Assembly (NCBI GenBank): GCA_029268205.1
Contig: JAJUGK010000002.1
Coordinates: 1-46,785 of the forward strand
Direction: 5' to 3'
Length of the DNA stretch: 46,785 nucleotides
DNA from: Nocardioidaceae bacterium
GTDB taxonomy: Bacteria; Actinomycetota; Actinomycetes; Propionibacteriales; Nocardioidaceae
A program made the translations under genes and the position numbers. Of the stretch, positions 12,084 through 27,257 are shown piece by piece. Under the pieces are notes generated by a model, which saw only the letters and a list, made by a program, of their open reading frames with translations, did not search any database and was not told the DNA's origin. Each line of letters begins with the position of its first letter. The stretch's first letter is position 1.

Positions 12084-12974
12084 TCAGAGCTCCTCGAATG
12101 TCTCCGGGTCGCCGCCGATCCGTCCACGCGGGTCGACGGACGCACCGACCTCGGCGTACTCCCGGGTCGTCAACTCGAGGTCAAAGATTCTGAGGTTCGC
12201 CGACTGCCGTCGGCGGTCCGCCGACTTCACGACCACCGCCCGCCCCTGCCGGAGGTGCCAGCGCAACACCACCTGCGCCACAGTGGCGCCATGGCGGTCG
12301 GCGATCTCGCGCAGTCGCGGTTCTTCGTGCACGCGGCCGCTACGCCCCAGGGGGCTCCACGCAACGGTCTGGATCCCCAGGCGTCGATGAGCGGCCTCGA
12401 CGAGACCCGGCACGAACCCGGGGTGGGCCTCGACCTGGTTGACCACGGGCAGCTCGCCGGACTCCGCGCGCAAGCGATCGAGATGCTCCGGCAGGAAGTT
12501 GGAGACCCCGATAGACCCAAGCACACCCTCCTCACGCAGGTCGATCAGTGCCCGCCACGCCTCGACGTAGGCACCGCGCATCGGCAACGGCCAGTGGATC
12601 AGATACAGGTCGATGCGGTCGAGCCCAAGCCGTTCCACGGAAAGGTAGGCAGCACGACGCGCCGCCTCGTAGCCGTGGTCACGGCCTCGGAGCTTGCTCA
12701 CGACGAAGATCTCGTCGCGCGGGAGGCCCGTCGCCCGGACCGCCCGCCCCACCTCGATCTCGTTGCCGTACCGGGTGGCTGTATCCACAAGCCGATACCC
12801 GACGTCGAGCGCACTCGCAACGGCTGCCTCGGCCTCCGCCCCGCGAAGCGGATAGGTGCCGAACCCGACCACCGGCATCGCCGCCGCGTCGGCGAGCCGC
12901 ACTCGGCCACTCGTGTCCACCCCGGACACCAGGTCGGGAGGGACGGATGCGGCTTCGTCAGGCACGGGATTCAC
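12084..12974 (-). CDS. Aldo/keto reductase
   Basis: 296 residues, GTG start inside the end of the GMC oxidoreductase gene (17-base overlap). The NADPH-dependent TIM-barrel family tetrad is complete: Asp64, Tyr69 (TATRYGNE), Lys94 (VVSKLRG) and His127 (YLIHWPLP). Further family landmarks are GSIGVSNF and the late KS.DRRR NADPH-binding segment. Overall it resembles the 2,5-diketo-D-gluconate reductase group, which reduces keto-sugars and small aldehydes. As the last gene of the 13-gene catabolic operon it probably reduces an aldehyde or keto intermediate, or interconverts polyol and sugar. Substrate unknown. Confidence 0.88.
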   Translation of the reverse strand: MNPVPDEAASVPPDLVSGVDTSGRVRLADAAAMPVVGFGTYPLRGAEAEAAVASALDVGYRLVDTATRYGNEIEVGRAVRATGLPRDEIFVVSKLRGRDHGYEAARRAAYLSVERLGLDRIDLYLIHWPLPMRGAYVEAWRALIDLREEGVLGSIGVSNFLPEHLDRLRAESGELPVVNQVEAHPGFVPGLVEAAHRRLGIQTVAWSPLGRSGRVHEEPRLREIADRHGATVAQVVLRWHLRQGRAVVVKSADRRRQSANLRIFDLELTTREYAEVGASVDPRGRIGGDPETFEEL

Positions 12975-14571
12975 CGAGGATGAGTGCCGCTCCCTTCTCC
13001 CCGATCATCATGGAGGGCGCTTGGGTGTTCCCGCTGATGATCGTCGGCATGACGGAGGAGTCGATCACCCGCAGCCCCTCCAAGCCGTGGACGCGAAGCT
13101 CGGGGTCCACAACTGCAAGGTCGTCGACGCCCATCTTGCAGCTGCCGACCGGGTGATAGTCGGTCTTGCCCCAGGCGCGGATAAAGTCGCGGATCTCGGA
13201 GTCCGTGCGCACGCTGTCGCCCGGGAGCCGCTCCTCCTTCAGGATGCCCTTGAACGCCGGCGCAGCGAGCACCTCCCGCATGATCTTGAAGCCCTCGACT
13301 GCCACGTCCATGTCCTCGGGGGTCTCCATGTAGTTCGGGTCGACGATCGGCGGGACGTTCGGGTCCGCGGAGGCGAGGGTGACCGATCCGCTCGACGTCG
13401 GTCGCACATTGCAAGCCAGGAGCGTCACGCCGTGACCGGGGATCTTCTCGGCCTGCTGCGCCCCGTCCTTCCAGACCACGTAAGCCGGAAGGAAGTGCAA
13501 CTGGACGTCGGGCGAGCGCACCTCAGGGCTGCTCGACACGAAGGCGCCGGCCTCGGTGATGGTCGCGGTGGCGGGACCCGTTCGATACAGCCCGTACTCG
13601 AGGGCGTGCAGCGCAGCCCGGTGCGGGCGGTTCTCGCCGCTGTAGGTGATCGGCTGTGCCGCCTCCCGGGTGATGTAGACCTCGAGTTGGTCGCGCAGGT
13701 TCCTCCCGACACCCGGGAGTGCGTGCACGACATCCACACCGACCGCCGCCAGTTCGTCCGCCGGACCAATGCCTGACAGCAACAGCAACCGGGGCGTGTT
13801 GATCGCTCCTGCACTCAGGATCACCTCGCCGTCCGCGTAGGCGACCTCGTCCTTGCCCCGGCGCCGGTAGCGGACCCCCACGGCGCGCCCTCGCTCGACG
13901 AGGACCTTCTGTGCATCGGCACCTGTGAGGACCGTCAGGTTGGGGCGGTCGAGCACCGGGTGCAGGAACGCTGTGGACGCGCTCTCCCGTCGGGCGTTGC
14001 GCTGGGTCACCTGGTGGAAGAAGACACCTTCCTGACTCGCACCGTTCGGGTCGTCGGTACGGGGGATCCCGACCTGCTGAGCCGCACGTACGAACGCCTG
14101 GGAGGTCGGGTTGTGCTGCACCTGATCCGCGACGTTGAGTTCCCCGTCGGTGCCGTGAAACTCATCAGCGAGCCGCTCGTTGCGCTCATGCTTGATGAAG
14201 TACGGCAAAACCTCGTCGTAGGACCATCCCGTGCAACCGAGATCCGCCCACTCGTCGTAGTCGAGACGGTTCCCTCGGATGTAGAGCATGGCATTGACCG
14301 ACGTCGACCCACCGAGCGCCTTACCCTGCGGCAGGAACATCGTCCTGTTGTTGAGGTGCTTCTGCGGAGCCGTGTTGAAGATCCAGTTCGCCTTCGTTCC
14401 CATCAACATGGAGAAACCCGCGGGGATCTTCAGCAACGGGTGTCGGTCACGCGCACCTGCCTCCAGGAGCAGGACGCGGTGTCGCGGGTCTGCACTGAGG
14501 CGATTCGCCAACACGCAGCCGGCTGCGCCGGCGCCCACGATGACATAGGTGTAGCGGCTCAAGGTTGTCAC
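12958..14571 (-). CDS. GMC-family FAD-dependent alcohol dehydrogenase/oxidase
   Basis: 537 residues, GTG start overlapping the glycerate kinase stop as GTGA. FAD-binding GAGAAG (13-18) and LLLEAGARD near 35 open the protein. The family signature GKALGGSTSVNAMLYIRG comes near 83, and the second GMC signature GAINTPRLLLLSGIGP near 255. The catalytic pair is His473 (DYHPVGSCKMG) and Asn515 (SGNTQAPS). It lies closest to the choline-dehydrogenase/AlkJ type, which oxidises primary or secondary hydroxyls and passes electrons to the respiratory chain or oxygen. In this cluster it is the likely first oxidation of an imported hydroxylated substrate, with the aldehyde dehydrogenase next. No signal peptide is present, so it acts in the cytoplasm. 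Confidence 0.9.
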   Translation of the reverse strand: MTTLSRYTYVIVGAGAAGCVLANRLSADPRHRVLLLEAGARDRHPLLKIPAGFSMLMGTKANWIFNTAPQKHLNNRTMFLPQGKALGGSTSVNAMLYIRGNRLDYDEWADLGCTGWSYDEVLPYFIKHERNERLADEFHGTDGELNVADQVQHNPTSQAFVRAAQQVGIPRTDDPNGASQEGVFFHQVTQRNARRESASTAFLHPVLDRPNLTVLTGADAQKVLVERGRAVGVRYRRRGKDEVAYADGEVILSAGAINTPRLLLLSGIGPADELAAVGVDVVHALPGVGRNLRDQLEVYITREAAQPITYSGENRPHRAALHALEYGLYRTGPATATITEAGAFVSSSPEVRSPDVQLHFLPAYVVWKDGAQQAEKIPGHGVTLLACNVRPTSSGSVTLASADPNVPPIVDPNYMETPEDMDVAVEGFKIMREVLAAPAFKGILKEERLPGDSVRTDSEIRDFIRAWGKTDYHPVGSCKMGVDDLAVVDPELRVHGLEGLRVIDSSVMPTIISGNTQAPSMMIGEKGAALILGESRA

Positions 14572-15581
14572 TTCCTGGCTTCAATGGGATCAGATGATTC
14601 AAGGGATAGGGCCACCGTGAGGCGGTGCCCGACGTCGTGCAGGGACTCGGGGCTCCCCGCTTCGTGGACCGCGCACAGCCCCAGGGCCCGGGCTACCTCC
14701 GGCCCGCCGCGGTCGCGTCCGACGACGGCATACACCGGTACGCCCGCCCGCCTCGCGAGCCGGGACACGCCCTGCACGGCCTTCCCTTCCAGGGTCTGCG
14801 CATCGAGGCTGCCCTCGCCGGTCACCACCGCGTCGGCCGACGCGAGCAGCGCCTCGAGACCCACTGTTTCGAGCACGGCCTCGATTCCCGAGACGAGCCT
14901 CGCGTCATGCACGGCCCACAGCGCGCCAGCGAGGCCACCGGCGGCTCCCGTGCGCGCAACCCCGCGCGGATCGCGCGGGAAGGTTCGGGCAGCCTCGTGC
15001 AAGCGAGTGGTCAGACGCCGGACCGTGTCCGGGTCGGCCCCCTTCTGCGGTCCGTAGACCTGCGCGGCCGCTTCATAGGGCGTGGTGACGTCGCACAGCA
15101 CTCGAACCCGGACCGAGCCGAGCCCCCCAGCCGCCGCGAGCGCACCGAGCGCACCCAGACCACCATCGGAGAAGCCGCTGCCACCGCCGCCGAGCAGGAT
15201 CTCCTCCGCCCCGCTGGCGGCGGCATGGGCGAGCAACTCACCGGTGCCGGCGCTCGTCGCGGCGAAGGCGTCGACGGTGCCCGGATCGACGAGGTGCAGC
15301 CCGGACGCCTGCGCGGTCTCGACGACCGCGATGCGCCGGTCCTCAGACAGGAGGAAGGACGCCTCGACCAGGGTGCGATCGGGCGCGTGGACCCGGTAGG
15401 TGTGCAGCTTCCCGCCCAGGGCAGTCCGCAGTGCTTCGAGGGTTCCTTCCCCACCATCGGCCACGGGGCAAAGGCGGGCCGTCCCGCCAGCGGTCCGCAC
15501 ACCGCCCGCCACGGCTTCCGCCACCTCCGCGGCGGTCAGCGTCCCCTTGAACGAGTCGGGCGCGATCACGACTGTCGGCAT
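14568..15581 (-). CDS. Glycerate kinase (GlxK/GarK family)
   Basis: 337 residues, ATG start with GAGGAGG five bases upstream. The family motifs are present: VVIAPDSFKGTLTAAEV at the N-terminus, PVADGGEGTLEA near 39, GGGGSGFSDGGLGALGAL near 131, the YGPQKGAD segment near 175, and GEGSLDAQTLEGKA near 252. It phosphorylates D-glycerate, in this family mostly to 2-phosphoglycerate, bringing a C3 unit into glycolysis. At 337 residues it is shorter than the usual about 370-380; the shortening is spread over loops, with no sign of a broken frame. Its presence implies that the cluster's pathway yields glycerate, for example from tartronate semialdehyde or hydroxypyruvate. Confidence 0.9.
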   Translation of the reverse strand: MPTVVIAPDSFKGTLTAAEVAEAVAGGVRTAGGTARLCPVADGGEGTLEALRTALGGKLHTYRVHAPDRTLVEASFLLSEDRRIAVVETAQASGLHLVDPGTVDAFAATSAGTGELLAHAAASGAEEILLGGGGSGFSDGGLGALGALAAAGGLGSVRVRVLCDVTTPYEAAAQVYGPQKGADPDTVRRLTTRLHEAARTFPRDPRGVARTGAAGGLAGALWAVHDARLVSGIEAVLETVGLEALLASADAVVTGEGSLDAQTLEGKAVQGVSRLARRAGVPVYAVVGRDRGGPEVARALGLCAVHEAGSPESLHDVGHRLTVALSLESSDPIEARK

Positions 15582-16465
15582 CGTGCCTCCTCGGCCACCG
15601 GCTGGCCTTCGGCCGCGCCGGTCAGCACTCGGGCGTCCCTTCCACCGCTGGCGGCACCGACAAGGCTCCGCATCCGGGTCGCGACATCACCCACCAAGTC
15701 GTCGATCGGACGGTCCCACAGACCGCGGTTGAGGATCTCCGCCTCGAACGGCCCGCGGTAGCCACAGGATCTGAGGCGATCGACGAAACCCGCCAGGTCG
15801 ATTACCCCGTCTCCCGGCAGTCCCCGGCCGGCGACCAGATCCACGGTCGGGACCAACCAGTCAGCAATGTGTGCCAGCGCCAAGAAGGGCGCAGCGCGTT
15901 GCAGTGCAGCGCCGAGGTCGGGGTCCCACCATAGGTGGTAGCTATCTGCGACGACGCCGACCGCAGGATCGGCGATGGACGCAACCAGGTCGGTCGCCTG
16001 ATCCAGCCGGACCAGAGCCGAGCGCTCGGCCGCGAACATCGGATGGAACGGCTCCACGCCGAGGGTCACCCGATGCTCGCGAGCGGTCGGGATCAGGCGC
16101 TCGATACCGTCGCGGATCCGTGCGATCGCCTCGGCCGTTCCTGCCTCGAGCACCGGACCACAGACCAGCACGAGCACGGGTGCACCGAGGATCGCGGCTT
16201 CCTCGATGGCCGTGCAGTTGTCGCGGTGCGCAACCTGGTCGGGGCGCGTGCCGGTGAAGAATCCCCCCCGGCACAGGCTGCTCGCACGCAGGCCGTGGTC
16301 ATCGAGCGCACGACGTGTACGCGTCGCATCGCCGTCGATGAACCCGTGGCGCCAGGGCGCGAACCGGGTGATTCCTGCCCGCTCGCACGCGGCGAGAGTC
16401 GTAAGCATCGGTGTCTTCTCCGCCGTCGCCTGATTGAAGGACACCACGTCCGCGAGCCGGGTCAC
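15566..16465 (-). CDS. Sugar phosphate isomerase/epimerase-family TIM barrel
   Basis: 299 residues, GTG start overlapping the DUF993 stop as GTGA. It belongs to the xylose-isomerase-like TIM barrel group (IolE, hydroxypyruvate isomerase, ketose epimerases). Likely metal-site residues are Glu in LGVEPFHPMF, Asp and His in VVADSYHLWWD, His in LALAHIADW, and the late Glu in GPFEAEIL. These are the four positions that normally hold the divalent metal. It may isomerise, epimerise or eliminate from a keto-sugar; some family members also open 3-keto-glycosides. The C-terminal about 30 residues past the barrel are low-complexity and overlap the glycerate kinase gene. Confidence 0.8.
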   Translation of the reverse strand: MTRLADVVSFNQATAEKTPMLTTLAACERAGITRFAPWRHGFIDGDATRTRRALDDHGLRASSLCRGGFFTGTRPDQVAHRDNCTAIEEAAILGAPVLVLVCGPVLEAGTAEAIARIRDGIERLIPTAREHRVTLGVEPFHPMFAAERSALVRLDQATDLVASIADPAVGVVADSYHLWWDPDLGAALQRAAPFLALAHIADWLVPTVDLVAGRGLPGDGVIDLAGFVDRLRSCGYRGPFEAEILNRGLWDRPIDDLVGDVATRMRSLVGAASGGRDARVLTGAAEGQPVAEEARCRQS

Positions 16466-17652
16466 GTCTCCACTCCGGCCATCGCGAGGAAGTGCCGCAG
16501 GCGAGACTGGGCGAGATCGGGATCGGCCAGTGCACCGGCATGGTCAGCCAGCGCAAACACCCGCGCCAGGTGGGGCACCGAGCGCATCGTTTCCGCCCCG
16601 GCAAGCATCCGGAAGTGATCCTGGTGCCCATTGAGCCAGGCCAGGAACACAACGCCGGTCTTGTAGGCCGACGTCGGCGCGGCGAACAGGTGCCGTGCCA
16701 GCGGCACCGTCGGCTCGAGGATGTCGACGAACCCCTCCGCATCCCCGTCGTCGAGGCGAGCGAGCGCGACCCGCGCCGGAACAGCGAGGGCATCGAACAC
16801 CCCCAGGAGCGCGTCGCTGTGGCCCTGATCGTCTCCCCGGATCAGATCGACGTAATTGAAGTCATCACCCGTATGCATACGCACCTCGGGTGGCAGGAGC
16901 CGACGCACTGCGACCTCGCGTTCGGCGTCGAGCAACGAGATCTTGACCCCGACCACCGTCGCGCGATGACGCTGGACGATCCGGAGGAAGGTCTCCTGCG
17001 CAGCGTCGAGATCTCGGTCGCCCCAATACCCGGCGAGGTCGGGATCGAAGCTCTCGCCCAGCCAGTGCAGGAAGACCGGGCCGGATGCGACCGCGAGCAC
17101 GGCGTCGTACACCCGCTCGTAGTCGTCGGCACCGCGGGCGTGCGCGGCCAGGTGCCGGCTGGCCATCACGACGGGCGTCCCGCCGCACTGTTCCACCCAC
17201 GCCACCTGTTCCTGATAGGCCTCGATGATCCGGTCCAGGGTCAAGCCCTGGACACCGGACGGCAGCTGGTCCGTCTGCGCACCGCAGACCACGCGACCTC
17301 CCACTGCTCTCGCCTCCGCGCACGAGCGCCGGATGAGTTCACGCGCACCGTCCCAGCCGAGTCCCATGCCGCGCTGGGCGGTGTCCATCGCTTCGGCGAC
17401 ACCGAGTCCGATGCTCCACAGGTGGTGCCGGAAACGCAGGGTGGCGTCCCAGTCGACCGAGCTCGGCAACAGTCCGACCGGCTCCGCGAGAGGATCGAGG
17501 ACAACGTGCCCGGCGGCGTAGACCGAACGACTGGCGGGAGGGACCCCACCGAGCCTGTCGATCTGGTCGAAGCTGGAGCCACGCCGTCCGAGCACGTGGG
17601 TGATCAGCTCACCGTCCGGCCCGGGCAACCGGATCGAGGAGGTGCCGCTCAC
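16462..17652 (-). CDS. DUF993 family protein (dihydrodipicolinate-synthase-like TIM barrel)
   Basis: 396 residues from GTG 17652, which overlaps the CoA-transferase stop as GTGA; an earlier in-frame start would lie inside that gene. The sequence matches DUF993, annotated as dihydrodipicolinate-synthase-like and never assigned a reaction to my knowledge. Conserved-looking segments are AGHVVLDP, LGVAEAMDTAQRGMGLGW, CGAQTDQL, FLHWLGESFDP, VGVKISLLD (a lysine where class I aldolases carry their Schiff-base residue) and MHTGDDFNY. Direct neighbours are the sugar isomerase and glycerate kinase, so a retro-aldol cleavage of an oxidised sugar derivative is an attractive guess. That is inference from fold and position only. 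Confidence 0.78.
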   Translation of the reverse strand: MSGTSSIRLPGPDGELITHVLGRRGSSFDQIDRLGGVPPASRSVYAAGHVVLDPLAEPVGLLPSSVDWDATLRFRHHLWSIGLGVAEAMDTAQRGMGLGWDGARELIRRSCAEARAVGGRVVCGAQTDQLPSGVQGLTLDRIIEAYQEQVAWVEQCGGTPVVMASRHLAAHARGADDYERVYDAVLAVASGPVFLHWLGESFDPDLAGYWGDRDLDAAQETFLRIVQRHRATVVGVKISLLDAEREVAVRRLLPPEVRMHTGDDFNYVDLIRGDDQGHSDALLGVFDALAVPARVALARLDDGDAEGFVDILEPTVPLARHLFAAPTSAYKTGVVFLAWLNGHQDHFRMLAGAETMRSVPHLARVFALADHAGALADPDLAQSRLRHFLAMAGVET

Positions 17653-19283
17653 GCCCCCTGCTCCTTGCCAGCCCGGTACGAAGCACGCCACTGCTCTCCG
17701 AGAGGAGCATCCGTGAAAATCGCGGGGTGCATGGGCTTCACGTCGGCTGGCACCTCGACCCAGTCACCGAGATGCGCCAGGACGTCGCGCTCCAGGTCGA
17801 TGCCTGGGGCGACCTCCTCCAGCCGTAACCCGTTCTCACCCAGACTGAAGACCGCTCGCTCCGTCACGTAAAGCACACGTTGTCCGCGCAGGCGGGCCTG
17901 CTCGGCGCTGAAGGTGACCTGCTCGACCTCGTCCACGAACTTCGGGTGCTTGCCGTCCGCCCGGAGGTCCAGGAGTCCCGCGCCCGGCACCGCCTGAAGC
18001 CCGCCAGCGTTGAACGTCCCGCAGAACACTACGGTCGCGGCGTTCTGCGAGATGTTCACGAATCCCCCGGTGCCGACGACTCGCTTGTTGAACTTCGAGA
18101 CGTTGACGTTCCCGTACCTGTCGATCTGCGCGAATCCCAGGAAGGTGATGTCGAGCCCGCCACCGTCGTAGAAGTCGAACTGGTAGGGCTGATCGAGCAC
18201 AGCTGCGGGATTGGTGGAGACACCGAAGATCACGCCGCGGGCCGGGACACCACCCACCAGCCCCTGCTCCACGGTCAGCGTGAACAGGTCCGACCATCCC
18301 TCCTCGGCCGCGACAGTGGCGACCCCGTCGGCGATGCCAACGCCGAGGTTCACGACATCTCCGTCGCGGATCTCGGCGAGAGCCCGGCGGGCGACGACTT
18401 TGCGCTGGTCGAGGATGAACGGCTCGAGATGACTGAGGGCCTGCTTGAACTGCCCGGAGTAGGCAGGGTTGTATGCACCTTCCACCGTCTGTTGCTGTTC
18501 GGGGTGAACGACCACGACGTCGACGCAGATGCCGGGCACCTCCACCGACCGGGGCGGCAAAGAACCGGCCTGCGCGACGTACTTCACCTGAGCGACCACC
18601 AATCCACCGGAGTTGCGGGTGGCCTGTGCGATCGAAAGCATCTCCAGGTTCGCCGCTTCGTGCTCCAGCGAGAGGTTCCCCTTCTCATCGGCGACGGTGG
18701 CGCGAATGAAGCAGACATCCAGATCGAGGCTCGGATAGAAGAGCCACTCGCGACCACCGACCTCGACGACCTCGATGAGCTCCTCGGTGGTCACCTCGTT
18801 CAGCTTCCCGCCCTCCAAGCGAGGGTCGCAGAAGGTCCCCAGCCCGACGTGCGTCAGGACTCCGGGACGTCGACCTGCGATCTCCCGGAAGAGCTGGCTC
18901 ATCACGCCTTGAGGGAAGTTGTAGGCCTCGAACTCGTTATTGATGACCATCGTGCTCATTCGCGGCGCCATGCCCCAGTTGCCAGCGATGATCCGACGGG
19001 CCAGTCCGGGGTGGGCGAGAAGATCCATACCCCCACCCGCGCGGTCCCCGATGCCGGTGGTGTGGACCAATGTGAGGTCACCGGGGCCACCGGATTCGCG
19101 GTACCGCCGGCCGAGCGCGGAGAGCAGGAGGTCCGGTTCCACGAGGCCACCCCCCGATCCGCCGATGGCGACCGTGTCACCCGGACGGACCATCCCGACT
19201 GCTTCGTCGGCGTGGAGGAACAGCGGCCCGCCGCGCACTCGCCGGGACGGCCGGGACGAGACTGCGGAAGCGGACAGGGACAT
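17649..19283 (-). CDS. Acyl-CoA:carboxylate CoA-transferase (family I, propionate/acetate type)
   Basis: 544 residues from ATG 19283, chosen because GGAGGAG stands six bases upstream. An ATG at 19313 overlapping the SDR stop is possible but lacks this site. It is a fused alpha-beta family I CoA-transferase: the alpha half has GDTVAIGGSGGG near 36 and the beta half has VNLGVGIADGVATVA near 311. The catalytic glutamate is Glu339 in LTVEQGLVGG, and the late GLQAVPGAG segment fits the YdiF/propionate CoA-transferase type. It moves CoA between short acyl groups, activating a carboxylate without ATP. In a sugar-importer cluster this implies an acyl-CoA branch, together with the crotonase two genes upstream. 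Confidence 0.87.
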   Translation of the reverse strand: MSLSASAVSSRPSRRVRGGPLFLHADEAVGMVRPGDTVAIGGSGGGLVEPDLLLSALGRRYRESGGPGDLTLVHTTGIGDRAGGGMDLLAHPGLARRIIAGNWGMAPRMSTMVINNEFEAYNFPQGVMSQLFREIAGRRPGVLTHVGLGTFCDPRLEGGKLNEVTTEELIEVVEVGGREWLFYPSLDLDVCFIRATVADEKGNLSLEHEAANLEMLSIAQATRNSGGLVVAQVKYVAQAGSLPPRSVEVPGICVDVVVVHPEQQQTVEGAYNPAYSGQFKQALSHLEPFILDQRKVVARRALAEIRDGDVVNLGVGIADGVATVAAEEGWSDLFTLTVEQGLVGGVPARGVIFGVSTNPAAVLDQPYQFDFYDGGGLDITFLGFAQIDRYGNVNVSKFNKRVVGTGGFVNISQNAATVVFCGTFNAGGLQAVPGAGLLDLRADGKHPKFVDEVEQVTFSAEQARLRGQRVLYVTERAVFSLGENGLRLEEVAPGIDLERDVLAHLGDWVEVPADVKPMHPAIFTDAPLGEQWRASYRAGKEQGA

Positions 19284-19309: not shown

Positions 19310-20077
19310 TCATGCCATGACTCCGCCGCCGTTGACGTGCAGAGTCTGGCCGTGGATGAAGGACGCGCCGTCGCCCGCGAGGAAGACGACTGCGGGGGCG
19401 ACCTCCTCCGCGCGTCCCATTCGCCGAGCGACGAGCCCGCTCGTGCGCTCGCGGGTGAGCTCCTCGTCGAAGGTGGCGTCCGTCATCGGCGTGACGATCG
19501 GGCCCGGGGCCACAGCGTTGACCCGGATGTCCGGCCCGAGCTCGCGAGCCATCGCACGAGTCAACCCGAGCACCCCAGCCTTGGCGGCACAGTAACTGGC
19601 GAACTCCGCCGCTCCGCGCATCGCCAATTGGGAGGAGATGTTGACGATGACACCGCCGCCGCGTCCGAGCATCCGCTCGGCCGCGTGCCGTGACACGATG
19701 AACACCCCATCGAGGTCCACGGCCAACGTGTGACGCCACTGCTCCAGCGTCATCTCGGTGATCGCGGCTGGGGCCATCACTCCAGCGTTGTTCACCACGA
19801 CGTCCAGCGGACCCAGGGCGCTCTCAGCGGCGTCGATGAAGCCTGCTGTCTGGTCCCAGTCGGTCACGTCGCCCTCGACGACGACTGCAGGGGCCCCTGC
19901 CGCTATAAGCTCCGCAGCAAGCTCGTCAGCTGCTGCAGCCTGCCCGAGATGATGGATCGCCACCGCAGCACCCGCGGCAGCCAGGCCACGGCAGATCTCG
20001 ACACCGAGACCGCCGGGCGCACCCGTCACCAGAACCCGGCGGCCGGCCAGGTCACCGACATCGGCAGATCTGGTCAT
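19310..20077 (-). CDS. Short-chain dehydrogenase/reductase
   Basis: 255 residues from ATG 20077 (ATGA overlap with the aldehyde dehydrogenase stop). Classical SDR features: the cofactor motif TGAPGGLG (18-25), NNAG (96-99), Ser148/149 in NISSQ, and the catalytic Tyr162 and Lys166 in SYCAAK. The C-terminal GQTLHVNGGG is typical of FabG-like members. After the cofactor strand the sequence reads AIHHLGQ, with no acidic residue at the end of strand beta-2, which would fit NADP rather than NAD. It probably oxidises a secondary alcohol, or reduces a semialdehyde (for example to glycerate) for the kinase further along. Substrate unknown. Confidence 0.88.
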   Translation of the reverse strand: MTRSADVGDLAGRRVLVTGAPGGLGVEICRGLAAAGAAVAIHHLGQAAAADELAAELIAAGAPAVVVEGDVTDWDQTAGFIDAAESALGPLDVVVNNAGVMAPAAITEMTLEQWRHTLAVDLDGVFIVSRHAAERMLGRGGGVIVNISSQLAMRGAAEFASYCAAKAGVLGLTRAMARELGPDIRVNAVAPGPIVTPMTDATFDEELTRERTSGLVARRMGRAEEVAPAVVFLAGDGASFIHGQTLHVNGGGVMA

Positions 20078-21606
20078 CGCGCGTACCAGGCCGGGCGCGA
20101 GCCGCGGAACATCTGGACGGTCTTCAGGTCGGTGAACAGCTCCATCCCCTCGCGTCCGAACTCCGCACCGAAGCCGCTGTCCCGACGTCCACCGAGCGGA
20201 AGCTCGGGGTATGCGTCCGTCGATCCGTTGACCCACACGGTGCCCAGGTCGAGACCCAGCGTGAGCTCCAACGCCTCGTCCACGTCACGGGTCCAGATCG
20301 ATGCCGCCAGACCGAAGCGCTGGTCGTTTGCCCGTTCCACGACGGACGGAAGGTCGCCGAAGGACTGCACGGTCGTGACGGGACCGAAGAACTCCTCCTG
20401 GATAGCGTGGTTGTTGTCGCTCTCCGCCATCAGGAGCGTCGGCGCGAGGTACGGACCGGCCGTCCCCGCGTCGACGGCGGCAGCCGATCCGCCTGCGACC
20501 AGCCGTGCGCCCTCTCCGACAGCACGAGAAACTCCGCTCTGGATCGCGGCGAAGTGCTGCTCCGAGATCAGCGGACCCATCTCGGTGGCGTCCTGGTAGG
20601 GATCGCCCAGGCGGATGCTCCTTGCACCGGCGGCGAGTCGCTCCGCCAGCTCGTTGGCGATGGCTTCATCCGCGAGGATCCGCGAACCTGCCACGCACAC
20701 CTGACCCTGGTTGAAGTACGAGGAGAAGAGGATGCCCGCCACCGCGTCGTCGAGGTCGGCGTTGCGGGTGACAATCACGGGCGTCTTGCCGCCTGCCTCG
20801 ATCGCGACGCGCTTCAGCCGCACCTCACCCGCACCGGCCGCGATGTGACGACCCGTCGTAGTGGACCCGGTGAAGCTGATGACATCCGTATGCCGGTGGC
20901 GCACGAGGCTCGCCCCCGTCGCGCCCTCGCCGAGGATGACCGACAGCGCACCGGGCTCAAGGCCCGACTCGTAAAGGACCGCGGCGACCGCTAGCGCCGT
21001 GAGAGGCGTGAGCGGGCTCGGCTTGAGGACGACGCTGCACCCTGCCGCCAACGCCGGCGGCAGCTTCTGCCCGAGGATACCGAGCGGGAAGTTGAACGGG
21101 ACGATCAGTCCTGCCACTCCCACGGGCTCGCGGAGGGTGAAGGCGAAGACGTCGGGGGCGATGTCGCGCTGTGTCCGGCCGGTGACGTCCCGCGCCAGAC
21201 CGGCGAAGTACTCGAAGGCGTTTACGGTCGCCGCCACCTCGCCGCGCGCCTCGCGGATCGGCTTTCCGTTCTCGGCGACGAGCAGACGCGCCAACGCTTC
21301 GGACCGCTCCTCGATCTTCATCGCCGCGCGGCTCAGCACCTTCGCTCGATCGCGACCCGTCGTACGGCCCCACGCGCCTCCTCGGACGGCAGCTCGTGCG
21401 GCGGCGACCGCCGGGTCCACGTGGGCATCACCGGTGTCGATACCGGAGAAGAGGGCGCGACCGTCCGCGGGGCTGATCCGGGCAGGGAGCTCGTCGTCGG
21501 CGGGCATTGCCTGACCTGCGACGAGGGATGCCACCCGTGGCACACCGTCGCGCTCCCCCAGGAACGCCGGGCCGAGCACGGTCAGATCGACGGGAGAGGT
21601 GTTCAC
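20074..21606 (-). CDS. Aldehyde dehydrogenase
   Basis: 510 residues, GTG start with AAGGAG seven bases upstream and a GTGA overlap with the crotonase stop. The NAD(P)-dependent aldehyde dehydrogenase residues are all present: Asn172 (VPFNFPLG), Lys195 (VLKPSP), Glu270 (IEAGGKTP, usually ELGGK) and catalytic Cys304 (GQVCVAGSR). The GSTTTG cofactor turn and the C-terminal LPLGGRRDSGFGAEFG are also seen. Most similar in pattern to vanillin/benzaldehyde- and succinate-semialdehyde-type members. It probably oxidises the aldehyde made by the GMC enzyme to a carboxylate, the substrate class needed by the CoA-transferase. Confidence 0.9.
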   Translation of the reverse strand: MNTSPVDLTVLGPAFLGERDGVPRVASLVAGQAMPADDELPARISPADGRALFSGIDTGDAHVDPAVAAARAAVRGGAWGRTTGRDRAKVLSRAAMKIEERSEALARLLVAENGKPIREARGEVAATVNAFEYFAGLARDVTGRTQRDIAPDVFAFTLREPVGVAGLIVPFNFPLGILGQKLPPALAAGCSVVLKPSPLTPLTALAVAAVLYESGLEPGALSVILGEGATGASLVRHRHTDVISFTGSTTTGRHIAAGAGEVRLKRVAIEAGGKTPVIVTRNADLDDAVAGILFSSYFNQGQVCVAGSRILADEAIANELAERLAAGARSIRLGDPYQDATEMGPLISEQHFAAIQSGVSRAVGEGARLVAGGSAAAVDAGTAGPYLAPTLLMAESDNNHAIQEEFFGPVTTVQSFGDLPSVVERANDQRFGLAASIWTRDVDEALELTLGLDLGTVWVNGSTDAYPELPLGGRRDSGFGAEFGREGMELFTDLKTVQMFRGSRPAWYAR

Positions 21607-22397
21607 GAGTTCGCTCCTTCGGCGTCGTGGCGGGGCTGTACGTTGCGCGCGGCGCGCGCCGCGGCCTTGCGATCGAGGAAGTCCTGCTTGCGTGCCCGAG
21701 AGCTCTCCAGACCTGCGGTGTACGCCGCGATCGCACTCTCCTGGGAGAGCTCCCGCTCGAAGTCGCCCAGCAGTTGCTTGGAGAGCGCGACTGCACGCGG
21801 CTCAGCTGCAGCGAGGCGCGTGAGCACAGCGTCGACAGCACCCTCCAGGTCGGCCGCTTGCACCGCGTTGCTCACCACCAGCAGTTCGGCGGCGCGCGCG
21901 CCACTGATCAGCTCACCGGTCAGGAGGAGGTGGCGGGTCACCCCGAGACCCGCGACGGCGACGAGCCGCGCGAGGCCGCCCCACGAGGGCAGGTTGCCCA
22001 AGCCGAGCTCCGGCAGGCCCAATCGGGCATCGTGGGTCGCTATTCGGACGTCGCAGGCCAAGGCCAACTCGAATCCGCCGCCGATCGCCGTGCCCTCGAT
22101 GGCTGCCACGCTGGGTTGTGGCAGTCCCGCGAGACGACGGAACGCCCGCTTGCCGAGCTCGGAGAGTTCCGCCGCGACGTCGTGTGGCGGCGCAACCCAG
22201 TCGGCGATGTCGGCTCCGGCGCTGAAGGTCCCACCGGCGCCACGCACCACCACCACCTTGGCGGTTGGATCTGCTTCGATCGCGCTCACGGCCTCGTCGA
22301 GGTCCACAAGCATCGCGCGGTCGATCGCGTTGCGTTTGGCAGGGCGCTCCAGGGTCAGGGTCGCCACGCCGGCGGTCACCGACACGGACACAGACAT
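21603..22397 (-). CDS. Enoyl-CoA hydratase/isomerase (crotonase family)
   Basis: 264 residues. The oxyanion-hole segments GTFSAGADIADW (56-67) and IEGTAIGGGFELALACD (100-116) are present. Both catalytic glutamates of classical enoyl-CoA hydratase are there: Glu110 (GGGFELA) and Glu130 (LPELGLG). It should therefore hydrate a 2-enoyl-CoA, or act as a mechanistically similar lyase. It is the first enzyme gene after the importer and overlaps the aldehyde dehydrogenase by GTGA. The C-terminus (RKQDFLDRKAAARAARNVQ) is typical of the family's trimerisation helix followed by a disordered tail. Confidence 0.88.
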   Translation of the reverse strand: MSVSVSVTAGVATLTLERPAKRNAIDRAMLVDLDEAVSAIEADPTAKVVVVRGAGGTFSAGADIADWVAPPHDVAAELSELGKRAFRRLAGLPQPSVAAIEGTAIGGGFELALACDVRIATHDARLGLPELGLGNLPSWGGLARLVAVAGLGVTRHLLLTGELISGARAAELLVVSNAVQAADLEGAVDAVLTRLAAAEPRAVALSKQLLGDFERELSQESAIAAYTAGLESSRARKQDFLDRKAAARAARNVQPRHDAEGANS

Positions 22398-22448: not shown

Positions 22449-23444
22449 TCAGGTACGAGAGCGCTTGGCGAGTTGGTCGACCAGGAGCGCGAGGATGATG
22501 GCGGCACCGACGGCCACCTGCTGGTAGAACGCCTGCACGTTCAGCGAGGTCAGACCGGCAGTGAGGGTGGCGATGAGGATCGCCCCGAAGGCAGCGCCTG
22601 CCATGCTCCCCTCGCCCCCGGCGAGCTTGGTGCCGCCCATCACGGTGGCGGCGATGGCGGTCAGGAGCAGGTCGGCACCGAGCGTCGGGTCAGCGGCGCC
22701 GAGGCGCGCGGTGAGGATCGCACCCGCGAGGCCCGCTGCCGCCCCCGCGACCACGTAGGCGGTCGCGGTGTGCCGGCCGACCGAGATGCCCGCCAGCCGA
22801 GCTACCTCGGCGTTCCCGCCGATCGCGATCAGGTACTCCCCGAAAAGGGTGTACTTCAGGACCAGGACGGAGGCGATGGTGAGAACGGTGAAGAGCACGA
22901 CCGGGATCGGGATACCCGCGATACCGCCCGCGAGCGCGTCCTCGAACGGCACGGGAATCCCGTACACGGCCTGTCCGCCAGCGATGATCAGCGCCAGTCC
23001 CGCGTAAATGCTCATCGTGCCGAGCGTCACGATGAACGGAGTGATCCCGGTGACGGTGATGAGGAGCCCATTGACCAATCCACAGAGCGCCCCGACAGCC
23101 AGCGCACCGAGGATCGCGAGCGCTGGTGACGTCTGCTGGGAGAACAGACCGGCGCAGACCGCTGACACCGCGACCGTCGAACCGATTGAGAGATCGATGC
23201 CTCCGGTGAGGAGAACATAGGTCTGACCTAGGGCCAATATCCCCACCACGGACGCCTGCAGGAGCACGTTCATGAGGTTGTTGGCCTCGAAGAAGAACGG
23301 CCGCGCGGCGCCGAAACCCACGACCAGCGCGATGATGACCGCGATCAGGCCGCCCTGCCGGGCGATGGTGCCGAGGCGGGCACGCACCACAGAGCCGACT
23401 GCGGGAGTGGTGGGGACGACGGATGCTGCTGGGGAGTGGGACAC
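22449..23444 (-). CDS. CUT2-type sugar ABC transporter permease (RbsC-like)
   Basis: 331 residues from GTG 23444, eight bases after GAAGGAA; an upstream in-frame start would extend it without adding family sequence. It is an inner-membrane permease with eight or more hydrophobic segments. Family landmarks are the loop LTGGIDLSIGSTVAVSAV near 98, VNGLLITVTGITPFIVTLGTM, and GGNAEVARLAGISVGR, which contacts the ATPase. The IAATVMGGTKLAGGEGSMAGAAFGA stretch is typical of ribose/allose-class permeases. It is the single permease of the cluster's importer and would work as a homodimer with the double ATPase encoded 46 bases upstream. Confidence 0.92.
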   Translation of the reverse strand: MSHSPAASVVPTTPAVGSVVRARLGTIARQGGLIAVIIALVVGFGAARPFFFEANNLMNVLLQASVVGILALGQTYVLLTGGIDLSIGSTVAVSAVCAGLFSQQTSPALAILGALAVGALCGLVNGLLITVTGITPFIVTLGTMSIYAGLALIIAGGQAVYGIPVPFEDALAGGIAGIPIPVVLFTVLTIASVLVLKYTLFGEYLIAIGGNAEVARLAGISVGRHTATAYVVAGAAAGLAGAILTARLGAADPTLGADLLLTAIAATVMGGTKLAGGEGSMAGAAFGAILIATLTAGLTSLNVQAFYQQVAVGAAIILALLVDQLAKRSRT

Positions 23445-23490
23445 GGGTTCGGTTCCTTCGATGCGAGCGGGACGGACTCGGAACTCAAGA

Positions 23491-24975
23491 TCATTCGGCG
23501 GCGGCATGGCGCACGACCTCCTCCTCGCTCAACTCCTCGCGAGAGAGCTCAGCGACCAGGCGTCCATCGCGCATGACGACCACGCGGTCGCTCATCGCGA
23601 GCACCTCCGGCAGGTCGGAGGAGATCATCAGGACGGCCTTGCCGCTCTCAGCCAACTGACGCATCAGATGGTGGATCTCGCCCTTAGCTCCGACGTCGAT
23701 GCCGCGGGTCGGCTCGTCGAAGATGTACACATCGCTGTCGTTGCGCAGCCATCGCGCGAGCACGACCTTCTGCTGATTTCCGCCCGAGAGCGTGCCGACG
23801 GGTTGGTCGACCTGCATCTTCGTGTTGAGCGGGCGCAGCCATTCGGCCGCCACCTCGCGCTGTCGGCGGCGACCGATCACGCCGAATCGGGACGGCGGGT
23901 CCATCAGCGTGACGTTGGATGCCGTCGACATGTGCAGGGCGAGACCCTGGTGCTTGCGGTCCTCGGTGATCAGTGCGATCCCGGCGGCGATCGCATCCGC
24001 GGGCCGATTGATACGGACGAGCTTGCCATGCACCCGCACGTCACCTGCACTGCGCCGGTCGGCGCCGACCACAGCACGCGCGAACTCGGTGCGGCCGGCG
24101 CCGACCATCCCAGCCATTCCGACGACCTCGCCGGCGCGGAGGGTGAGGGAGACGTCATGCACGACTCCGGGCACGGAGACGTTCTCCACCCGGAGGATCT
24201 CGTCACCCGGGGTTGTGTCCCCCTGGACGCCAAGCGCATCCAGGTCGCGGCCCACCATCAGCTGCACCAAGTCACGCTCAGAACGGACTTCCGCTCTCAA
24301 CCTGGTGCCGACAAGCGCACCGTCGCGCAGCGCCGTCACCCGATCGGAGAGTGCCAGCACCTCCTTGAGGCGATGGCTGACGTAGATGATCGCCCGGCCC
24401 TCCTCCCGGAGGGTGTCGATCACCGAGAAGAGACGCTCGCTTTCCGCCGAGGTGAGGGAGGCCGTCGGTTCGTCCATGATGATTACGCGCGCGTCCGTGC
24501 TCACCGCACGCGCCAACTCGATCAGCTGCTGCTGCGCGACGCTGAGCGCAGAGACCGGAACGTCGGCCGGAGCGTCGAACTTCAGCCGGTCCAGCGCGAG
24601 GCGTGCACGTTCGCGCGCCTCGCGCCAGTCCACGATGCCGACCTTGCTGCGCTCCCGACCCAGGACCAGGTTCTGGACCGCAGTGAGCTGCGGCACCAGA
24701 CTCAGCTCCTGGTGGACCATCGCGATCCCGGCCCGCATGGCATCGGACGGCCGGTCGAAGCGAACCTCCTGCCCGTCGACGTGCACCGAGCCAGAGTCCG
24801 GCTGCTGTACGCCGAAGATCGTCTTCAGGAGGGTCGACTTCCCCGCGCCGTTCTCCCCGAGCAGGGTGTGCACTTCCCCGGCGTACGCCGCGAAGCTCAC
24901 CCCTGACAGGGCGACCACGCCTGGGAAGGCCTTGGTCAGTCCGCGTGCCTCCAGAACAGGGGTCGCGTCGGTCAT
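23491..24975 (-). CDS. CUT2-type sugar ABC transporter ATP-binding protein (RbsA-like, two domains)
   Basis: 494 residues carrying two nucleotide-binding domains. Domain 1 (about 7-240) has Walker A GENGAGKST (40-48), signature region LSVAQQQ and Walker B VIIMDEPTASLT. Domain 2 (about 255-494) has the degenerate Walker A GMVGAGRTE, signature LSGGNQQK and Walker B VYIFDEPTRGID. A degenerate second P-loop is normal in RbsA/MglA/AlsA proteins. It powers import through the RbsC-like permease. It lies 47 bases after the binding-protein gene, completing a one-operon importer. Confidence 0.93.
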   Translation of the reverse strand: MTDATPVLEARGLTKAFPGVVALSGVSFAAYAGEVHTLLGENGAGKSTLLKTIFGVQQPDSGSVHVDGQEVRFDRPSDAMRAGIAMVHQELSLVPQLTAVQNLVLGRERSKVGIVDWREARERARLALDRLKFDAPADVPVSALSVAQQQLIELARAVSTDARVIIMDEPTASLTSAESERLFSVIDTLREEGRAIIYVSHRLKEVLALSDRVTALRDGALVGTRLRAEVRSERDLVQLMVGRDLDALGVQGDTTPGDEILRVENVSVPGVVHDVSLTLRAGEVVGMAGMVGAGRTEFARAVVGADRRSAGDVRVHGKLVRINRPADAIAAGIALITEDRKHQGLALHMSTASNVTLMDPPSRFGVIGRRRQREVAAEWLRPLNTKMQVDQPVGTLSGGNQQKVVLARWLRNDSDVYIFDEPTRGIDVGAKGEIHHLMRQLAESGKAVLMISSDLPEVLAMSDRVVVMRDGRLVAELSREELSEEEVVRHAAAE

Positions 24976-25022: not shown

Positions 25023-26102
25023 TCACTCGAACAGGTCGGTGAGGACCTGACCCTGCTGGTCGTAGTAGTCGTCGACGTTGTCAGCGGTGATCAGCTGCGC
25101 CGGCGCAACGATCCACGGAGCAACCTCCTGCCCCTCGAGCAGACGCAGGGCCGCCTCGACCGCCCAGTAGCCCTCCCAATACGGGAGCGGGCTCACGGTG
25201 GCGGTCATGCTTCCGCCACGGACGCCGGCGATCGCCTCGGGCACACCGTCGGTCCCGACGACCGCAATCTCCTTGCCCGATGCCTTGACGGCCTTCGCAA
25301 CGCCGATGGCCATGGTGTCGTTGTTGGCGTAAATGCCCTTCACGTCCGGGTGCTGCTGGATGATCTGCTGCGCCGCGGCGAAGGCCTTGTCGGGGTCCCA
25401 GTCTCCCGGCACGCTGGCCACCAGGTTGAGACCCGCGTCCTCGACGCCCTCGGTGAAGCCCTTGATCCGCAGGATCGCCGCGCTCGAACCCGCCTGACCC
25501 TCGACCTGAGCCACCTTGGCGCCCTCGTCGAACAGCGCCGCGAACTCCTCCGCGGCCTGGATCCCATTGCTCTCGTGGTTGGGCCCGACGTACACCGACG
25601 CAGCGACCCGGGCATCGTCGACGTTCACGATCGGCGCATCCTGCGCCTTCATCTGGCGCAACGCCGGCGTCAGGTTCGAGGTGCTCTCAGGAGCGACGAC
25701 GTAGGCGTCGAAGTTCTGTCCCGTCATCGTCTGGGCAATGGTCAGCTGCTCCGTCTGTGCCGTCTCACTACTGGCCGCCTGGACGACCACATCGATGCCG
25801 TAGTGCTCAGCCGCGGCCTTGGCGCCGCTCTCGATGCCTTGCCAGTACTGGTTCGTGAGTGCCTTGAGAATGACCGCGACGCGGTACTTCTCGCTGGCCT
25901 CCACGTCGCCGTACGTCGAGGTCATCTCCTCACCAGGGAGCGAGTCGATGTCCTCCTGGTCACTGGTGTACGTGTAGGTGGACTCGGTATCGGTCGAGTC
26001 GCCACTTCCGGAGACCGAGTCGGCCGAAGAACAGGCCGCGAGGGCAAGCAGAGAAGCTCCCGCCAGAAGCGCGAGAGAACGAGTTCGATTACGACGAGTC
26101 AT
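25023..26102 (-). CDS. Sugar-binding lipoprotein of the CUT2 importer (AlsB-like)
   Basis: 359 residues. A lipoprotein signal (RRNRTRSLALLAGASLLALA) ends at Cys24 in the lipobox LAAC. An acidic linker follows to about residue 60, then a periplasmic-binding-protein type 1 domain. Segments such as VAVILKALTNQYW, VAPESTSNL, VAQVEGQAGSSAA, GDWDPDKAFAAAQQIIQQHPDVKGIYANNDTMA and VVGTDGVPEA closely follow the D-allose binding protein AlsB as I remember it. AlsB-like binders also take polyols and other rare sugars, so the ligand is not settled. The 66-base upstream gap holds a LacI-type operator. Confidence 0.9.
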   Translation of the reverse strand: MTRRNRTRSLALLAGASLLALAACSSADSVSGSGDSTDTESTYTYTSDQEDIDSLPGEEMTSTYGDVEASEKYRVAVILKALTNQYWQGIESGAKAAAEHYGIDVVVQAASSETAQTEQLTIAQTMTGQNFDAYVVAPESTSNLTPALRQMKAQDAPIVNVDDARVAASVYVGPNHESNGIQAAEEFAALFDEGAKVAQVEGQAGSSAAILRIKGFTEGVEDAGLNLVASVPGDWDPDKAFAAAQQIIQQHPDVKGIYANNDTMAIGVAKAVKASGKEIAVVGTDGVPEAIAGVRGGSMTATVSPLPYWEGYWAVEAALRLLEGQEVAPWIVAPAQLITADNVDDYYDQQGQVLTDLFE

Positions 26103-26155: not shown

Positions 26156-26169
26156 GGAAATCGTTTTCC
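26156..26169. promoter_or_regulatory. LacI-family operator before the binding-protein gene
   Basis: GGAAATCGTTTTCC is a 14-bp palindrome with a central CG and one mismatch. It differs at a single base from the site at the lacI start (27241-27254). It overlaps the lacI stop codon and lies 53 bases upstream of the binding-protein start, a position where bound LacI would block the promoter of the importer/catabolic operon. Confidence 0.82.
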
Positions 26170-27257
26170 TAATGGGCAGGGTCGTACCCGGTCGGCGGTG
26201 GCCTGTCGTCCGCGCATCCGCAGGTCGCCCGTGCCATTAGCCGCGCGGGAAGGGTCGTGAGGCTTGGCGCGGTCGCTGGGCGCCCCTCCCAGCGGTCGGT
26301 GATCCGTTGCACAAGGCGCTCGGCAGCCAGCCTGCCGACCTCGCGCGCGCGGGAGTCGACGGTGGTCAACCGGACACCCGGCATTCGACCGACCCAGATG
26401 TTGTCGAAGGCGACCACGGCCAGGCCGCCGGGGACGGCAACCCCCCGGCGCGAGCACTCCTCCAGGACGCCGACGGCCAACCGGTCGCTGCTCACGAAGA
26501 CCGCGGTGGGCGGGGTGCCGAGGTCGAGAAGGCGGGCGGCCGCGTCGGCGCCGGCGTCCACGGTGCTCTCAGTGACCCGCACCTCGAGGTCGGCGTCGGG
26601 CTGCCCCTGCCGCTCCACCATCGTGTCCCACCACGCGTGTCGACGCTCGGCGAAGGGCATCACGTTCTGCGGTCCCGCGATGTGGGCAACCCGCTCATGG
26701 CCGTGGTCGAGGAGGTGTTCGGTCGCGATGCGTCCACCGGCGACGTTGTCGACCACGACCGCATCTACCAGGTCCGCGCGGTGCAGGTGGCGGCTGGCCA
26801 GCACAACGTCGAGGCCGGACCCGACAAGTTTCTCGACCTCGTCGTGGTCCATCGTGACCGAGGCGAGGACCACCCCGTCCACTTGACGCTGACGCATAGA
26901 CCGCACGACGTCGGACTCACGCTCCGGCCGTCCCTCGGTGCTGCCGAAGAGCACCGTGAAGTCGTTGCGGCCCAGTACCTCGTCGACACCGGCCATCAAC
27001 TCCGGGTAGACCGGGTTCGCGATGCTCGCCACGACCATCCCCACCGTTTGCGTTCGGCGGCGGACGAGGTCGCGGGCGATGGCGTTCGGCTGGAAGTCGA
27101 GCTCGTCGACGGCGGCGGCGATGCGCTGCCGCGCGTCCTGGGAGACGTAGTAGTCGCCCCCGCCGAGCACCTTTGAGACGGTCGCCTTGGAGACGCCAGC
27201 GAGCTCCGCGACGTCACCGATCGTGACGCGCCGCTCAACCGGAAACCGTTTTCCCAC
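26169..27257 (-). CDS. LacI-family transcriptional repressor
   Basis: 362 residues, GTG start. The helix-turn-helix with hinge helix covers residues 11-65 (TIGDVAELAGVSKATVS, then NAIARDLVRRRTQTVGMV). A sugar-binding-protein-like effector domain with VVASIANPVY, VLASRHLHRAD and VAFDNIW follows. Such proteins release DNA when the imported sugar or a metabolite binds. Two matching operators flank the gene, supporting repression of itself and of the 12 genes behind it. The first six codons coincide with the upstream operator, and no good ribosome binding site precedes the GTG. The next in-frame initiator would remove part of the HTH, so I keep 27257. Confidence 0.88.
   Translation of the reverse strand: MGKRFPVERRVTIGDVAELAGVSKATVSKVLGGGDYYVSQDARQRIAAAVDELDFQPNAIARDLVRRRTQTVGMVVASIANPVYPELMAGVDEVLGRNDFTVLFGSTEGRPERESDVVRSMRQRQVDGVVLASVTMDHDEVEKLVGSGLDVVLASRHLHRADLVDAVVVDNVAGGRIATEHLLDHGHERVAHIAGPQNVMPFAERRHAWWDTMVERQGQPDADLEVRVTESTVDAGADAAARLLDLGTPPTAVFVSSDRLAVGVLEECSRRGVAVPGGLAVVAFDNIWVGRMPGVRLTTVDSRAREVGRLAAERLVQRITDRWEGRPATAPSLTTLPARLMARATCGCADDRPPPTGYDPAH
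27241..27254. promoter_or_regulatory. LacI-family operator overlapping the lacI start
   Basis: GGAAACCGTTTTCC, a near-perfect 14-bp palindrome with one mismatch, shares 13 of 14 bases with the site at 26156-26169. It covers codons 2-6 of lacI, immediately after the start codon, as expected of an autorepression site. Confidence 0.8.

Follow-up and report, generated by a model that had tools for sequence, protein, structure and literature searches.

The unsaturated uronate route comprises a polysaccharide lyase, a GH88 enzyme, 2-keto-3-deoxygluconate kinase and 2-keto-3-deoxy-6-phosphogluconate (KDPG) aldolase; GH88 enzymes act on 4,5-unsaturated uronides. The non-phosphorylative Entner–Doudoroff pathway combines a dihydrodipicolinate synthase (DHDPS)-family aldolase with an aldehyde dehydrogenase and a glycerate kinase, leading to 2-phosphoglycerate. 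These routes, the levoglucosan pathway and β-oxidation are compared here with a 13-gene cluster at positions 12084–27257 of a 46,785-nucleotide stretch of Nocardioidaceae DNA (referred to as the window, contig C2 of a 2.6-Mb assembly of 198 contigs that is 81% complete). The cluster is tentatively read, with a probability of about 0.38, as one LacI-controlled catabolic operon for a hexopyranose-like substrate (a free hexose, a glycoside or a relative) that would be loaded onto coenzyme A (CoA) early.

All 13 genes lie on the minus strand with open frames, as an earlier note made from the sequence alone had described, and the families that it named were recovered by hidden Markov model (HMM) scans. 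In order of transcription, followed by two operator-like sites, the features are:

26169..27257, minus strand, LacI-family regulator, probable repressor of the operon (Pfam LacI/Peripla_BP_3)
25023..26102, minus strand, substrate-binding protein of an ATP-binding cassette (ABC) importer, D-allose-binding-protein-like (Peripla_BP_4)
23491..24975, minus strand, double ATPase of the sugar ABC importer (HMM match)
22449..23507, minus strand, permease of the sugar ABC importer (BPD_transp_2; best NCBIfam model D-allose permease, below cut-off)
21603..22397, minus strand, crotonase-family enzyme (both hydratase glutamates, GGGFEL and PELGL)
20074..21606, minus strand, aldehyde dehydrogenase (GQVC motif)
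19310..20077, minus strand, SDR oxidoreductase, FabG-like (YxxxK present)
17649..19313, minus strand, fused class I CoA-transferase of YdiF/FadX type (HMM match, profile comparison)
16462..17652 (open frame to 17691), minus strand, DUF993 protein, a DHDPS-fold barrel with an invariant lysine
15566..16465, minus strand, AP_endonuc_2 (xylose-isomerase-like) barrel (invariant E138, D174, H177 and E241)
14568..15581, minus strand, glycerate kinase (PF02595; TIGR00045 271 bits, cut-off 168)
12958..14571, minus strand, GMC oxidoreductase, choline-dehydrogenase-like (HMM match)
12084..12974, minus strand, aldo/keto reductase, DkgA-like (HMM match)
27241..27254, operator-like palindrome GGAAACCGTTTTCC, over the first lacI codons
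26156..26169, operator-like palindrome GGAAATCGTTTTCC, in the gap between lacI and the binding-protein gene

With starts re-read at ATG 20077 for the SDR gene and GTG 17652 (preceded by AAGGAG) for the DUF993 gene, the nine enzyme genes overlap by 4 bases at 6 of their 8 junctions, matching the earlier statement that most of them overlap by four bases; the remaining two overlaps are of 16 and 17 bases. Without re-reading, the DUF993 frame starts at 17691 and overlaps its neighbour by 43 bases. Gaps of 66, 47 and 51 bases separate the LacI and binding-protein genes, the binding-protein and ATPase genes, and the permease and crotonase genes, whereas the ATPase and single permease genes overlap by 17. 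The GC content is 0.683, compared with 0.739 and 0.727 in the flanks. The cluster looks acquired, because DUF993 is absent from the two other sampled genomes of the genus and present in just 12 of 100 genomes of the family, the window's own included.

None of the systems compared accounts for this gene set. With the non-phosphorylative Entner–Doudoroff pathway the window shares a DHDPS-fold enzyme, an aldehyde dehydrogenase and a glycerate kinase, but its DUF993 protein lacks the GTTGE motif and there is no sugar-acid dehydratase. GH88, KDPG aldolase and PfkB kinase of the unsaturated uronate route are likewise missing; the DUF993 protein and the isomerase-family barrel would cleave instead. 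The levoglucosan pathway (LgdA, LgdB1, LgdB2 and LgdC) resembles the proposal below in oxidizing the sugar and then eliminating rather than hydrolysing. That route is described without a CoA ester and with oxidation at C3, whereas the window has GMC, aldehyde dehydrogenase and CoA-transferase genes and no Gfo/Idh 3-dehydrogenase among its 13 genes; the Gfo protein of a Shinella cluster gave no match in the window at an E value of 1e-3. β-Oxidation and the ring β-oxidation of cyclohexanecarboxyl-CoA share CoA activation, an enoyl-CoA hydratase and an SDR with the cluster, and the acyl-CoA dehydrogenase with seven related gene sets; the window cluster has neither thiolase (no match among the 13 genes) nor acyl-CoA dehydrogenase.

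Other named pathways were rejected because their defining genes are absent from the 13: the myo-inositol (iol) pathway (Gfo/Idh inositol dehydrogenase and IolD, IolC and IolJ), the deoxyribonate pathway of the BKACE type (no Pfam match to a DUF849 β-keto acid cleavage enzyme), and the levoglucosan, carnitine, polyethylene glycol and vitamin B6 pathways. The isomerase resembles IolO weakly (35.5 bits, cut-off 300). No description of the gene set or pathway, no naming of DUF993 and no mention of glucuronyl-CoA was found in the literature searched, a collection of 5.39 million papers with few subscription titles, and the carbasugar and cyclitol literature held no such gene set among the matches listed. 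The gene set is thus explained by no pathway found, in line with the earlier claim that no described route uses it, and is more general than the earlier note could tell.

In the proposed pathway, the allose-type importer would take up the compound, and the GMC oxidoreductase and aldehyde dehydrogenase would oxidize a primary alcohol to a carboxylate, which for a hexopyranose ring would be a uronate. The YdiF-type CoA-transferase would convert the carboxylate to a CoA thioester. This would acidify the α proton, and the crotonase would remove water across the α–β bond (or add water), chemistry carried out elsewhere by an enolase-family dehydratase or a polysaccharide lyase. A ring ketone would next be formed from a hydroxyl by the SDR, after which two barrels, the isomerase-family enzyme and the lysine-bearing DUF993, would rearrange and split the carbon skeleton in place of a thiolase. 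The three-carbon piece would become glycerate through the aldehyde dehydrogenase and/or the aldo/keto reductase, and would be phosphorylated by the glycerate kinase. Much of this had been put forward in the earlier note, whose importer, oxidizing pair of GMC and aldehyde dehydrogenase, barrel cleavage and exit through glycerate kinase are retained. Its placing of the CoA-transferase and crotonase last, on an acyl part, is disfavoured by the Embleya and Shinella clusters, which would suit an early role better.

The Embleya sp. NBC_00888 plasmid (L184) carries, on one strand, genes for a binding protein, ATPase, permease, aldehyde dehydrogenase, CoA-transferase (49% identical to that of the window), crotonase, GH88 protein, KDPG aldolase, PfkB kinase and GMC oxidoreductase. 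It pairs enzymes of the unsaturated uronate route with the GMC/aldehyde dehydrogenase/CoA-transferase/crotonase module. The GH88 protein resembles unsaturated glucuronyl hydrolase 1vd5 (match at 5e-46) and retains the aspartate of HDIGF, where entry 2ahf reads HN. The simplest reading of this gene content is that GMC and aldehyde dehydrogenase make a uronide into which CoA-transferase and crotonase introduce the double bond. The Shinella stretch (L169) has the same four genes, its GMC 54% identical to that of the window, and lacks DUF993, isomerase, glycerate kinase and aldo/keto reductase. An early placement of CoA is suggested because both clusters carry the four-gene module without the downstream genes, in Embleya beside an unsaturated-uronide hydrolase.

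A profile of three linked CoA-transferase homologues, the window excluded, matches YdiF 2ahu at 4e-149. The crotonase has both glutamates of an enoyl-CoA hydratase, in GGGFEL and PELGL, which we take to be the catalytic residues, and the cysteine of GQVC is presumably the catalytic one of the aldehyde dehydrogenase. Among 108 DUF993 loci, an enolase-superfamily gene occurs in 8 and a CoA-transferase gene in none of those 8, consistent with two alternative means of α-proton abstraction. The Psychrobacillus stretch L025 (tripartite ATP-independent periplasmic (TRAP) carrier, family III CoA-transferase) and P. caribensis plasmid 2 (L109, major facilitator superfamily (MFS) transporter) contain no GMC or aldehyde dehydrogenase gene, as would be expected if the acid is imported directly.

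AroE-like dehydrogenase genes of one subfamily lie near the CoA-transferase in three related clusters:

L109 (P. caribensis plasmid 2), 10593–11417, AroE-like, 42% identical to the L169 protein
L169 (Shinella), 8406–9194, AroE-like, closest solved chain 4k28
L185 (Paraburkholderia), 14217–15254, AroE-like, 39% identical to the L109 protein

Where annotated, they are called ThiF or hypothetical. They fit an unsaturated ring acid, as a 4,5-unsaturated uronate would be shaped like shikimate; a carbocyclic substrate fits equally well.

The DUF993 protein, with residues numbered from 17691, was modelled by AlphaFold (mean pLDDT 83.8) and has a DHDPS-like barrel fold. Among the best 50 of 93 Foldseek matches (E ≤ 0.001), entry 4dnh comes first and the other 49, with E values of 1.6e-8 to 5e-7, are titled DHDPS or 4-hydroxy-tetrahydrodipicolinate (HTPA) synthases; TM-scores against DHDPS structures are 0.72–0.83 by target length and 0.54–0.61 by query length. 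Residue K250, in model strand 246–252, is kept in all 110 DUF993 rows. In an hhalign comparison with 34 DHDPS-family proteins, led by the DapA of this genome (probability 91%), K250 aligns with the lysine of VAVKD in DapA, and TGDD of DUF993 aligns with SGDD of DapA; an alignment with four templates placed K250 one residue off (probability 63%). The fold and Schiff-base lysine are thus shared with the DHDPS/N-acetylneuraminate lyase superfamily, whereas the GTTGE motif, which binds the pyruvate carboxylate in 2-keto-acid aldolases, is missing, MDTAQRG being aligned there, and the tyrosine of DapA is replaced by H209. M102–R107 are identical in all DUF993 rows, and G108 is present in 93% of the rows without CoA genes. 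Because K250 and GDD align and GTTGE is absent, DUF993 appears to keep the lysine chemistry and to have lost the pyruvate handle; the roles given to its residues are assumed from the DHDPS-family motifs. For the TIM-barrel pair that the earlier note had assigned to cleavage, support comes from the DUF993 fold and lysine. In the isomerase, E138, D174, H177 and E241 presumably form a metal site.

The closest solved DUF993 protein, 4dnh, is SMc04132 of S. meliloti, titled hypothetical protein; one paper tabulates it in its section on PhaR and gene expression. DUF993 is widespread: 147 of 72,556 plasmid records have matches, as do 24 of the 296 genomes sampled from the window's phylum, one of the 24 being that of the window.

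Glycerate is a likely product or intermediate of the pathway, since two unlike kinase families fill one slot. The window enzyme (PF02595) has BLAST relatives in the related sets of Rhodococcus (37%) and genome G080 (33%), whereas the Paracoccus enzyme is of the PF13660/PF05161 (DUF4147/MOFRL) type, with relatives in S. meliloti and Janthinobacterium; no BLAST match was found between the two types.

Genes for GMC, aldehyde dehydrogenase, CoA-transferase, SDR, DUF993, isomerase and a sugar ABC importer occur together at seven other loci in Actinomycetota and Pseudomonadota: Rhodococcus sp. USK13, G080 (of the window's family), Janthinobacterium lividum EIF2, Paracoccus kondratievae, S. meliloti pSymA, Sagittula sp. 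P11 and P. caribensis plasmid 1. The comparison was built by following hits rather than by random sampling, and absences hold for the stretches fetched. Aldo/keto reductase is found in 7 of the 8 sets (none seen in P. caribensis plasmid 1) and glycerate kinase in 6 (none seen in Sagittula and P. caribensis plasmid 1). The earlier note had proposed to look for the same gene order outside this strain; the gene content recurs, at seven loci in two phyla, and the order in all seven differs from that of the window.

This combination is a rarer type among DUF993 loci. Gfo/Idh dehydrogenase genes accompany 103 of the 108 and isomerase genes 105, compared with 5 for CoA-transferase; LgdA of the levoglucosan pathway is, we assume, of this Gfo/Idh type, the usual partner of DUF993 and the isomerase. 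The 108 rows consist of 30 chosen loci and 78 of the 80 top-ranking relatives of the window's DUF993, with BLAST labels assigned within 12 kb; L017 and L028 are unlisted despite having DUF993, and the Janthinobacterium plasmid is counted twice (L164 and L165). Of the 296 genomes sampled from the phylum, 9 have the CoA-transferase (E ≤ 1e-60), and among these the window's genome alone also has DUF993. Neither the CoA-transferase tree (19 rows) nor the DUF993 tree (110 rows) joins the window with the Rhodococcus/G080 lineage, and in the former the partner of the window is L115, which is not linked to DUF993. The DUF993-linked label needs three changes on the CoA-transferase tree, a number equally low in 27 of 500 shuffles. 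Many branches are weak, and the DUF993 tree was flagged for the meeting of long branches L098 and L141. Because the CoA-transferases and DUF993 proteins of the other sets do not group with those of the window, the combination may have come together on more than one occasion.

The importer has the gene set of the CUT2 allose/ribose type (Peripla_BP_4 binding protein, double ATPase and BPD_transp_2 permease), which bears out the sugar-type importer, called AlsB-like, of the earlier note. The best solved chains for the binding protein are named MSD3; next comes D-allose-binding protein 1gub, with which it shares an LK.L(S/T)N..W opening that the ribose-type 2ioy lacks; against the NCBIfam allose equivalog it scores 157 bits (cut-off 335). 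It is 55–56% identical to the Shinella binding protein, its best plasmid match, and 27–29% identical to the others compared. Mesorhizobium and Vibrio clusters with binding proteins 40–44% similar were set aside, as they contain Gfo, isomerase and kinase genes and no annotated CoA genes.

The pattern GGAAANCGNTTTCC occurs at two places in the whole assembly, both within the cluster; a reversed-pattern control gave none in the genome, and 100 shuffles of the window gave none. The divergent LacI and binding-protein genes on the plasmid of Shinella sp. PSBB067 have GGAAACCGGTTTCC and GGAAACCGGTTTCT between them. The window LacI is 45% identical to the Shinella LacI, and 28–29% to those of L098 and L141. 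As the window and Shinella sites were already known when the pattern was defined, its absence elsewhere is a test and its presence is not. The LacI control postulated earlier thus gains sequence support, and the LacI protein is the probable repressor of the operon.

Several observations weigh against the early loading of CoA onto a hexopyranose-like compound. The window cluster has no acyl-CoA dehydrogenase gene, whereas all seven other sets carry one (7 of 8 in the stretches fetched), and plain elimination from a uronyl-CoA needs none. The crotonase is found in 5 of the 8 sets (window, Janthinobacterium, Paracoccus, S. meliloti and Sagittula); in G080, two frames resembling crotonase lie some 3 kb upstream of GMC and were left out of the set. 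The window enzymes are 28–54% identical to their counterparts in other sets; because of this, and because the binding proteins are so divergent (Shinella excepted), the related clusters may act on other substrates, a related function being likely. The 24-kb Embleya stretch lacks DUF993, isomerase, glycerate kinase and aldo/keto reductase, and no KduI/KduD-type gene was recognized in its scanned part; for want of these genes (the reductase aside), the Embleya operon is a parallel and not the same pathway. Paraburkholderia L185 (MFS) has no GMC gene yet carries an aldehyde dehydrogenase fragment at the edge of its stretch, contrary to the importer rule. Most of the hints of a sugar come from loci outside the window.

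In a possible, if doubtful, alternative, oxidation, isomerization and cleavage come first, and the CoA-transferase and crotonase then finish an acyl fragment in the manner of β-oxidation while the glycerate kinase takes the three-carbon half. The acyl-CoA dehydrogenase, electron transfer flavoprotein, crotonase and SDR genes of S. meliloti, Paracoccus and Janthinobacterium resemble such a set, and DUF993 and the isomerase could act first, as they usually occur without a CoA-transferase. A thiolase, however, is absent from the window's 13 genes and is not annotated in the five annotated sets (G080 and P. caribensis plasmid 1 were unscanned), and Embleya, Shinella and L185 keep CoA-transferase and hydratase in stretches from which DUF993 is absent.

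Improbable, on our estimate, is a carbocyclic substrate, a hydroxymethyl cyclitol or hydroaromatic alcohol whose CH2OH group would be oxidized to give a shikimate- or quinate-like acid, followed by ring β-oxidation of its CoA ester. It would suit the three AroE-like genes and the acyl-CoA dehydrogenases of the seven sets; cyclohexane-1-carbonyl-CoA dehydrogenase is the second-best NCBIfam model for that of S. meliloti, as IolM is for its alcohol dehydrogenase. These matches are, however, far under the cut-offs (317 of 650 and 192 of 450 bits), and GH88, KDPG aldolase and PfkB kinase in Embleya point to a hexuronide. A chance or degenerate assembly of a sugar operon with lipid- or acid-type genes, to which the divergence of the window homologues and the lack of DUF993 in the two other genus members would be congenial, is very improbable given the open frames, tight overlaps, two operator-like sites in the genome and recurrence in two phyla.

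Further candidates were rejected. A search of the window's genome gave 28 acyl-CoA dehydrogenase matches (best 44%), and in the window the S. meliloti enzyme matched (tblastn) only at 31.3–32.4 and 36.5–37.6 kb, outside the cluster; these genes were not taken as part of the operon, as they sit among biotin carboxylase, carboxyltransferase, AtuA and enoyl-CoA hydratase genes. They fall in a second minus-strand cluster at 30313–39935 (enoyl-CoA hydratase, acyl-CoA dehydrogenase, biotin carboxylase with biotin domain, carboxyltransferase and AtuA-family protein), which to us resembles acyclic-terpene degradation of the geranyl-CoA carboxylase type. CoA-transferase neighbourhoods L110–L115 have phasin/polyhydroxybutyrate synthase, acetolactate synthase or acyl-CoA dehydrogenase/MaoC settings without DUF993, and the hcf genes of plasmid QKH54 have only GMC in common with the cluster.

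Directly downstream of the operon, at 8141–11974 on the minus strand, lie three chorismate-binding (TrpE/PabB-like) or glutamine amidotransferase frames, one carrying both domains; nearly all NCBIfam matches among those listed are below curated cut-offs. Upstream of the G080 set (L141, 64–5726), the two crotonase-like frames are accompanied by genes for a luciferase-like monooxygenase, an AMP-binding enzyme and a creatininase-family protein; together these may form a separate operon for the degradation of an acid. In the region 2170–11575 of L173 (NZ_CP021919), the Sagittula set adjoins genes for degradative HMG-CoA reductase, 3-keto-5-aminohexanoate cleavage protein and a TRAP carrier, presumably a mevalonate-degradation operon. 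The Janthinobacterium set (L165, NZ_CP049829, 1–32688), with EtfAB and TetR, is flanked by two IS3-family transposase genes, both WP_176381407.1, and resembles a mobile catabolic cassette. At L153:12594–13508, a Gfo-type DUF993 cluster has an extra ordinary DHDPS-family gene beside aldehyde dehydrogenase and glycerate kinase.

A broader proposal, which we rate as unlikely, extends to bacteria of two or more phyla: a neutral sugar or glycoside would be oxidized at C6 and the uronate loaded onto CoA, degradation running through thioesters of sugar acids; a crotonase would carry out the β-elimination, and DUF993, as a new Schiff-base carbon–carbon lyase in place of thiolase, would lead to glycerate. 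We know of no description of thioester-driven elimination of water from a sugar ring. If the CoA-ester reading is true, the use of thioester acidity for this purpose would be an added chemical strategy for sugars, and the function of the operon would give the DUF993 family a role and explain the gene set of S. meliloti pSymA.

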